A stretch of DNA of 37,008 nt. Source: Nitrospirota bacterium. GTDB lineage: Bacteria; Nitrospirota; Thermodesulfovibrionia; UBA6902. Positions 8,964 through 14,748 of the stretch are shown here, one piece after another (the stretch's first letter is position 1; each line of letters starts with the position of its first letter). A program made the position numbers and the translations under genes. The stretch is taken from assembly GCA_016234115.1 (NCBI GenBank), contig JACRHD010000060.1, positions 105,135-142,142 on the forward strand, read 5' to 3'. Under the pieces are notes generated by a model. That model did no database searches. It was not told the DNA's origin and saw only the letters and a program-made list of their open reading frames with translations.

Positions 8964-9101
8964 ATTATTTCTCTCCTTTCGCGGGAAATTTCCCATTGAT
9001 TTATATATTACTTATCACAGATTCGGACACGTTTCAACTACCCTGAGGGCCGTTCGCCCCTACACATGGATCATTCATAAACTGCGGGAGGTACTGCCCA
9101 A

Positions 9102-9140
9102 TCCCCCTCAGTCTCCCTTTCGTAAAGGGGGAGACAGGGG
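9102..9140. repeat. Imperfect inverted repeat (CCCCCT..TCCCTTT / AAAGGGGGAGA)
   Basis: An imperfect palindrome with arms around a CGT centre. Read as protein it gives the NPPQSPF..KGG pattern that is often mis-annotated in repeat-rich bacterial genomes. It abuts the 5' edge of a DUF559 remnant, and a related sequence lies at 9307-9340 on the other side. Confidence 0.7.
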
Positions 9141-9142
9141 TC

Positions 9143-9298
9143 GATGGCGGCCAGCATTACAGCGCTGAAGGCGTGGAGAACGATTGTCTGAGAGATGCAT
9201 ATGTTACAGGAGCGGGGATAACCGTTGCCGGATTTTCAGATAGAGATGTATTGAAGAATCTCAGAGCAGACCCGGAGGAAATATGGAAAAGATTATAA
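9143..9298 (+). pseudogene. DUF559 endonuclease-like gene, C-terminal remnant
   Basis: An open frame of 51 codons plus TAA without its own start. It begins with DGGQHYSAEG, the hallmark of the DUF559 (vsr/MutH-type restriction-endonuclease-like) fold, and continues to DVLKNL and a family-typical C-terminus. Full-length members are usually about 110-150 residues, so the N-terminal half, including early catalytic residues, is missing. The coding sequence begins abruptly at the edge of the left repeat (9102-9140) and is followed within 10 nt by the right repeat. This looks like a decayed, repeat-flanked cassette rather than a functional gene. Confidence 0.75.
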
Positions 9299-9306
9299 TC
9301 GAAAAA

Positions 9307-9340
9307 TCCCCCTTCATCCCCCTTTTCCAAAGGGGGAGAC
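9307..9340. repeat. Right-hand copy of the CCCCCTT..AAAGGGGGAGA repeat
   Basis: Contains a tandem CCCCCTTCATCCCCCTTTT run and an AAAGGGGGAGAC arm, related to the sequence at 9102-9140. Together the two copies bracket the DUF559 remnant. Confidence 0.65.
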
Positions 9341-9386
9341 ATCAGTTGACCCACACTCTTACGCGATGAGCCGGGAAAATAAAAAA

Positions 9387-9490
9387 GGATGCTGACTCAT
9401 GAGGGGACATGGCTGAAGTTAAAAGGTTTGGGCTCTTAGCGTAGGCAGGGAATAACCTTTTAAAATCTAAGTCAGCATCCTGTGCTTGAT
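9387..9490. other. Structured repeat element, copy A (possible ncRNA or MITE-like)
   Basis: The outer stem GGATGCTGAC (9387-9396) pairs perfectly with GTCAGCATCC (9471-9480). An inner stem TTAAAAGGTT (9419-9428) pairs perfectly with AACCTTTTAA (9454-9463). Between the stems lies GGGGACATGGCTGAAGT, and TGTGCTTGAT follows the 3' arm. The outer stem, the GGGGACAT..TGAAGT block and the 3' TGTGC.TTGAT block recur at 14526-14621. On the minus strand the outer hairpin is followed by TTTTTTATTTT, so this copy could also terminate minus-strand transcripts. Coding strand, if any, is unknown. The rest of the 8964-9615 gap holds only the DUF559 cassette and no further ORF I can support. Confidence 0.6.
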
Positions 9491-9615
9491 TACTGTTTCA
9501 TCTTACAACTAAATCATACGAAAATCAACAGGCCCCGTACATGATATAGATCATATATAATAATACGTTGCCTTTCGAACGCACTTCAACCGTTGAAACC
9601 CTTTGTAATTAATCA

Positions 9616-14491: not shown

Positions 14492-14525
14492 ACTTGCCGG
14501 GGACCTTATCTATAAATTCAAGGGA

Positions 14526-14621
14526 GGATGCTGACCCTTGTCTGGGGACATTGGTTGAAGTCGAAGGCTGGTGATATGATGTGCCTCTTAACTGTCAGCA
14601 TCCCCCTTGCTGTGCCTTGAT
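14526..14621. other. Structured repeat element, copy B
   Basis: The outer stem GGATGCTGAC (14526-14535) pairs perfectly with GTCAGCATCC (14594-14603), identical to copy A at 9387. The loop has GGGGACATTGGTTGAAGT. The inner stem GAAGGC pairs with GCCTCTT with one bulge and differs in sequence from copy A while keeping pairing. The 3' flank TGTGCCTTGAT is shared. It lies 35 nt after the DUF401 stop and 141 nt before the XRE gene, with no T-run on either strand, so a simple terminator role is not supported here. Confidence 0.6.
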
Positions 14622-14675
14622 CCGGCTCCCCTGTTTCTGATAAATAGAAGTTAAGCTAAAATCCCTCAATAAATT

Positions 14676-14748
14676 ACACTTAATACATTGTATTTGTCAA
14701 GCCTTTTTTTCAATTTTTACGTTGTAGTGAATAGAAAACTTTAAGTGT
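14676..14748. promoter_or_regulatory. Inverted repeat pair upstream of the XRE gene
   Basis: ACACTTAA (14676-14683) and TTAAGTGT (14741-14748) are perfect inverted copies 57 nt apart, the second 13 nt before the start codon of the XRE regulator. They could be operator half-sites for autoregulation. The 8-bp length makes chance possible. Confidence 0.3.

Follow-up and report, generated by a model that had tools for sequence, protein, structure and literature searches.

The window analysed here, a 37,008-nucleotide stretch of DNA from a Nitrospirota bacterium, contains two copies of a hairpin that raise the question of what kind of element they represent: an RNA gene, the leader of a neighboring gene, or a piece of mobile DNA. 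The earlier note on this DNA had described a perfect 10-bp outer stem (GGATGCTGAC/GTCAGCATCC) in both, and this stem is indeed present at positions 9387-9396/9471-9480 in copy A and 14526-14535/14594-14603 in copy B. The block GGGGACAT..G.TGAAGT is likewise common to the two copies. The 3' TGTGC.TTGAT block that had been counted with them lies outside of the element; it abuts the stem in copy A, is found about 8 nt farther away in copy B, and is missing elsewhere. Judged from comparisons among related genomes, the repeated hairpin appears to be a copy of a previously unlisted family of small-RNA (sRNA) genes, with elements of ~100 nt. An exposed loop in this RNA is complementary to the message starts of RAYT genes, and the RNA probably switches these jumping-gene enzymes off.

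RAYTs (REP-associated tyrosine transposases) are widespread, largely domesticated transposases, and little is known about their regulation. If the assignment is true, it would be a rare case in bacteria of enzymes of mobile elements being controlled in trans by small RNAs. The host-encoded family also gives an exact pairing prediction that can be tested cheaply.

Distribution and genomic context of the family

A DNA search of the same genome with copy A recovers three more near-full-length copies (E = 1.5e-34, 7.5e-32, and 8.9e-12), a recurrence well beyond what chance would give. A covariance model built from 26 copies, with copy B left out, places the element at eight distinct sites in this genome (C46, which carries both A and B, and C47, C7, C33, C22, C19, and C67), and its matches here also include mirror-strand echoes of the palindromic stem. 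Copy A (9377..9481, minus strand), defined by its outer stem and U-tract, matches with 111.4 bits. Copy B (14516..14604, minus strand) is diverged and has lost most of its interior, and the model still recognizes it (E = 4.3e-5 over the searched loci, 7.0e-4 per genome). Among 61 relatives, a DNA search finds matches in 30 genomes, all from one taxonomic family, and the covariance model matches 30 of the 37 genomes of this family with 1-11 rows per genome that include some mirror-strand echoes. The further copies in the genome and its relatives for which the earlier note had proposed a covariance-model search exist. A phylum-wide draw of 296 genomes contains a single match outside of the family (G096), and that copy has lost its seed. 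The core also turns up in public MAG records that carry the labels Deferribacteres, Thermodesulfovibrio sp., and BMS3Bbin09.

Rfam gives no match at the gathering score, none at E <= 10 around copy A, and only subthreshold chance matches at the other loci. The interiors of 67 distinct copies sort into four subtypes, I (46, including copy A), II (10), III (6), and IV (5). An RNA family that is not in Rfam is gained in this way from a poorly studied, mostly uncultured group. The DNA beside copy A also contains two occurrences of a different repeat, CCCCCTT...AAAGGGGGAGACA in type and unrelated to the hairpin (window positions 9100-9145 and 9303-9342).

The copies are intergenic. Their neighboring genes point in both directions and downstream distances are varied, and a riboswitch or other leader belonging to a single gene is ruled out on these grounds. 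Several contexts recur between species or genera: PhoU-like and UDP-glucose dehydrogenase-like genes border the element in both G000 and G002, a glycosyltransferase does so in genera g12 and g15, and an ArsR-like gene in g7. In six genera (g1, g3, g4, g7, g8, and g9; loci L023, L026, L027, L034, L038, L052, L053, L061, and L064), one to three copies directly follow the pair formed by a histidine kinase and a NarL-type regulator, or the regulator of this pair. In several of these contexts, genes for two further proteins come next, one two-CW-like (MAKLNCWEFKKCGREPGG) and one rhodanese-like; these names, like those of all context genes, come from reading translated sequences rather than from family searches. 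The NarL-type regulator may control the adjacent sRNAs. No element copy occurs at the RAYT loci of this genome, where the sRNA genes lie away from the RAYT genes. The suggestion that the hairpin is a stem-dependent mobile element is not supported by these observations: several copies keep their neighbors across species or genera, the stems vary around an invariant loop, and RAYT genes of this genome are not flanked by any copy. The link to transposases is of another kind and lies in the complementarity of the loop to RAYT starts.

Architecture and transcribed strand

Copy A has an outer stem, P1, whose 5' arm (RNA sense GGAUGCUGAC, 9471..9480, minus strand) and 3' arm (RNA sense GUCAGCAUCC, 9387..9396, minus strand) are defined by their sequence and by covariation in the family. 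The stem is presumed to be that of an intrinsic terminator, and a U-tract (RNA sense UUUUUUAUUU, 9377..9386, minus strand) follows it, in keeping with a family-wide U-tract bias. Since making the alignment fit this stem favors it in the pairing figures, what matters is how large the contrast is: 97.3% of the cells in its 12 pairs are standard pairs among 67 distinct, correctly oriented copies, and this value falls to 27-49% if the partner is slid by one to three columns. Changes on both sides occur in 10 of the 12 pairs, and none of 500 shuffles reached any of the outer-stem measures. These results uphold the earlier proposal of an RNA structure. The covariation offered as its basis needed the wider family, since two copies are insufficient to show any, and it is in the outer stem that covariation is seen family-wide.

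The inner hairpin of copy A (P3, 9419..9463, minus strand), with the conserved loop CCCUGCCUACGCUAAGAGCCC in the RNA sense, is visible in single-sequence folds and in the family alignment. Single-sequence folds also agree with the claim that the inner stem pairs in both copies, with the qualification that it is short in copy B (~5 pairs). The covariation claimed for this stem did not emerge in type I copies, where its sequence hardly varies and RNAalifold made no call.

Across the family the stems vary while the exposed loop is invariant (CAUGUCCCC, with the complement GGGGACAUG(G)). Its TGTCCCC seed is conserved at 99-100% in 70 copies, a figure that is somewhat flattered because having a CATGTCCCC-like loop, with at most two mismatches, was a condition for inclusion among these copies. 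The exposed seed of copy A (CCAUGUCCCCU, 9402..9412, minus strand; complement AGGGGACAUGG) was assigned from this conservation and from its pairing with RAYT starts. The corresponding region of copy B (RNA sense CCAAUGUCCCC, 14544..14554, minus strand) has one additional A.

The element had first been read on the plus strand. Several signals point instead to an RNA on the minus strand, spanning 9377-9481 in copy A and 14516-14604 in copy B. In 45/70 copies the stem is followed by a 9-nt stretch with at least six T's, as compared to 15/70 on the other side. With the minus-strand reading, the outer stem contains 25 G-U pairs versus 8 A-C pairs. Promoter scores are higher upstream than at the mirror position (Mann-Whitney p = 8e-4). 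A recurrent TATTTACAAA promoter precedes 12/70 copies, versus 2.6 in shuffles and 3 downstream, and a -10 box lies directly before the stem in 17/70, versus 12 in shuffled sequences and 3 at mirror positions. These promoter signals are enriched across the family and weak for copy A itself, for which the candidate TTGAAG-18-TATTAT (9560..9589, minus strand) is equaled by 22% of shuffles. The copy B candidate (TTGACA-16-TGTAAT, 14673..14700, minus strand) is equaled by 4%.

Predicted folding energies run contrary to the minus-strand signals, with the complementary plus strand more stable. We do not rely much on this test, as the composition of G-rich complements by itself makes them fold better. 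The plus strand could also be read as coding (MAEVKRFGLLA*), but this fails because indels between copies shift its frame. A minus-strand transcript would be a trans-encoded sRNA of ~100 nt, or longer if the promoter lies farther upstream, with several sibling genes per genome. Its ends would pair in a stem of 10-13 bp that, together with the U-tract, could serve as an intrinsic terminator. The invariant, pyrimidine-rich seed would then be exposed between the outer stem and the inner hairpin.

RAYT translation starts as predicted targets

This genome contains 55 occurrences of the seed complement GGGGACATG, versus 25 of the reversed control. Four of its five RAYT (Y1_Tnp) genes carry GGGGACATGG at the start or within 13 nt of it. 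At L013, L014, and L015 the motif is part of GGGGACATGGC, whose ATG is the RAYT start codon, whereas at L017 it begins 13 nt before the start. When 696 gene starts are ranked by predicted duplex, these four RAYTs take ranks 2, 3, 5, and 7, and the fifth RAYT, which has no site, takes rank 328. The starts come from ~0.8 Mb of the 3.5 Mb genome, a selection that takes in the RAYT genes and most GGGGACATG sites; the inclusion of these sites makes the ranking conservative with respect to non-RAYT competitors. Two hundred shuffled loops never placed more than two RAYTs among the top ten. The motif is found upstream of 15/22 RAYT genes and downstream of 1/22, its position is tied to the start codon, and the predicted duplex spans the start codon itself.

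Other genes have sites of this kind. A further transposase-like gene (of the MKYNPDIHHRRS type) has one 14 nt before its start, as does a relative in G005, and in a G027 relative GGGGAC occupies the same place, 14 nt before the start. At three loci of this genome (L101, L115, and L238), GGGGACATG lies at a plausible start of a lipoprotein-like, a RecQ-like, and a RadC-like ORF; these non-transposase genes are possible further targets. When eight selected genomes were searched for the site with looser criteria, the matches were mostly short or coding.

The same association holds at the family level. The strict motif is present in 25/44 RAYT leaders of the family and in 0/21 from other families of the class, and the predicted pairing is correspondingly stronger (-21.6 versus -11.6 kcal/mol, p = 1.7e-7). 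Among 69 RAYT genes, 26 of the 39 from sRNA hosts have the site, as opposed to none of the 30 from hosts without the sRNA (p = 1.2e-9, uncorrected for relatedness). The RAYT tree has at least eight motif changes on well-supported branches, and neighbors in it (for example, L302/L318 and L013+L139/L325) differ in the motif according to host. No independent pair changes in the wrong direction, and the sign test on these pairs is borderline (median p 0.03-0.06). Family members that lack the sRNA (G018, G019, and G032) also lack the motif at their readable RAYT starts.

A third of the RAYTs in sRNA hosts, including most in G013, are without the strict site, and some genomes with the sRNA (G010, G012, G016, and G030) have no PF01797 match. 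Other targets are therefore likely, and RAYTs are probably not the sole targets of the sRNA.

Hfq is found in 31 of the 37 family genomes and in 29 of the 30 with the sRNA. Both are present in 29 genomes, the sRNA only in one, Hfq only in two, and neither in five (p = 2.7e-4), a correlation owed in part to one genus, the source of three double negatives, and to some genomes being incomplete. The five without detectable Hfq or sRNA (G014, G019, G024, G028, and G032) suggest joint loss or absence.

We consider it fairly probable that these elements encode a multicopy, trans-acting sRNA of the Hfq type that carries its own terminator and whose invariant loop pairs with RAYT starts to repress translation. 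In the proposed mechanism, a duplex between the seed and GGGGACAUGG would cover the ribosome-binding site and the start codon of a RAYT mRNA and so block its translation, and Hfq would most likely assist the pairing. We infer from the patterns above that the sRNA is expressed, that the pairing takes place in the cell with Hfq participating, and that repression is the outcome. More tentatively, the family could be a genome-wide silencer of polyphyletic RAYT and IS200-like transposases, separate lineages of which would have repeatedly acquired the start-codon site in sRNA hosts. Such a silencer, if real, would be a bacterial counterpart, in logic and not in machinery, of small-RNA transposon silencing.

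Alternative functions and relation to known systems

A wider role for the same RNA would make RAYTs just some of the many targets of an LhrC-like blocker of Shine-Dalgarno sequences, with the function that preserves the seed lying elsewhere, such as in a NarL-type two-component regulon. The copies that adjoin a NarL-type system in six genera, the sRNA genomes without PF01797 matches, and the three non-transposase ORFs with sites at plausible starts are what one would expect of it. It does not account for RAYTs taking four of the top seven places among 696 gene starts or for RAYT sites that track host sRNA status, and we regard it as unlikely. The pairing might also take place without repression, either activating translation or making the RAYT leaders decoys that titrate the sRNA. 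There is precedent for antisense RNA that activates transposase translation (PMC8450116), and the repeated gain of the site by RAYT lineages needs a reason; a duplex over the start codon itself, however, usually blocks initiation, which makes this reading improbable.

Two further explanations dispense with the minus-strand sRNA. The hairpins could be REP-like or miniature DNA elements that are RAYT substrates, with GGGGACATGG a RAYT recognition mark in the element and at the gene border. As in REP and REPIN systems (PMC2817692, PMC3116915), they are repeated intergenic palindromes with a common motif in genomes that contain RAYT genes. They differ in their low copy number, in contexts common to several genera, in the U-tract after the stem, and in having an invariant loop instead of a tag that adjoins the hairpin. 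None occurs at the RAYT genes of this genome, the motif is nearly confined to the start side and tied to the start codon, and the inverted ends of the L017 RAYT (GGGACGTTGTT and AACAACGTCCC) are separate from the motif. A REP element beside RAYT genes is rejected on the absence of copies at RAYT loci and the start-side motif, and we judge the more general version highly improbable. Finally, the functional RNA could be the plus strand, with GGA motifs that bind CsrA in the manner of CsrB or RsmZ. This strand does contain AGGGGACA and CAGGGA, has the more stable predicted fold, and, like CsrB, RsmY, and RsmZ, would come in several copies per genome with a NarL-family regulator nearby. The U-tract, the G-U versus A-C counts, and the promoter signals all favor the minus strand, whose loops are C-rich and lack GGA motifs unlike those RNAs. 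A CsrA sponge is disfavored by this strand evidence, and the chance that it is correct seems very slight.

Our best reading from these comparisons is that the repressing sRNA would work like LhrC or IS10 RNA-OUT and is a member of neither group. LhrC1-5 of Listeria monocytogenes are multicopy, Hfq-binding, two-component-dependent RNAs in which a UCCC motif blocks Shine-Dalgarno sequences (PMC4132741). The family shares with them the several near-identical copies (of ~110 nt in Listeria), the UCCC pairing with Shine-Dalgarno sequences (predicted here), and the two-component link, where the adjacent system may exert control; the association with Hfq, which LhrC binds, is computed from co-occurrence. 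The likeness to LhrC, as described in PMC4132741, is one of mechanism. The sequence and the phylum are unrelated, one long closing stem here doubles as the terminator, and RAYTs are the predicted targets.

IS10 RNA-OUT pairs as an antisense RNA at the ribosome-binding site of transposase mRNA with the involvement of Hfq (PMC5006887), and the predicted pairing is at a similar place. Antisense RNAs of insertion sequences are encoded in cis by the element, unlike these chromosomal, multicopy genes, which lie away from the RAYT genes and would be aimed at several RAYT lineages. The sRNA genes neither oppose nor adjoin transposase genes, and a cis-encoded antisense RNA of an insertion sequence is rejected for this reason. 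Asr9 and Ssr9 of ISPpu9 are small RNAs that act on the 5' region of transposase mRNA, the region predicted here, and Asr9 is reported to raise translation; both are encoded at the insertion sequence, unlike the present family (PMC8450116). In IS200, a small RNA derived from the tnpA 5' end targets genes of the host (PMC12594629), which is the reverse of the direction proposed here, from host RNA to transposases. We found no description, in the open-access literature that we consulted, of a chromosomal, trans-encoded sRNA family with RAYTs as its targets.

Three additional observations concern individual RAYT loci. Type III copies (GCGUGUCCCC) and the G001 RAYT leader (GAGGGGACACG) show covariation that is suggestive, with predicted energies that do not discriminate. 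The inverted ends of L017 (C51) are distinct from its start-codon site and are reminiscent of CGTC-tagged REP elements. The best predicted duplex among the 696 starts is that of L222 (C48 of this genome, 14880-19769), an ORF of 1629 aa that closely follows a RAYT gene; its start region has two predicted pairing partners in the sRNA, the seed and the ACUUCAGC part.
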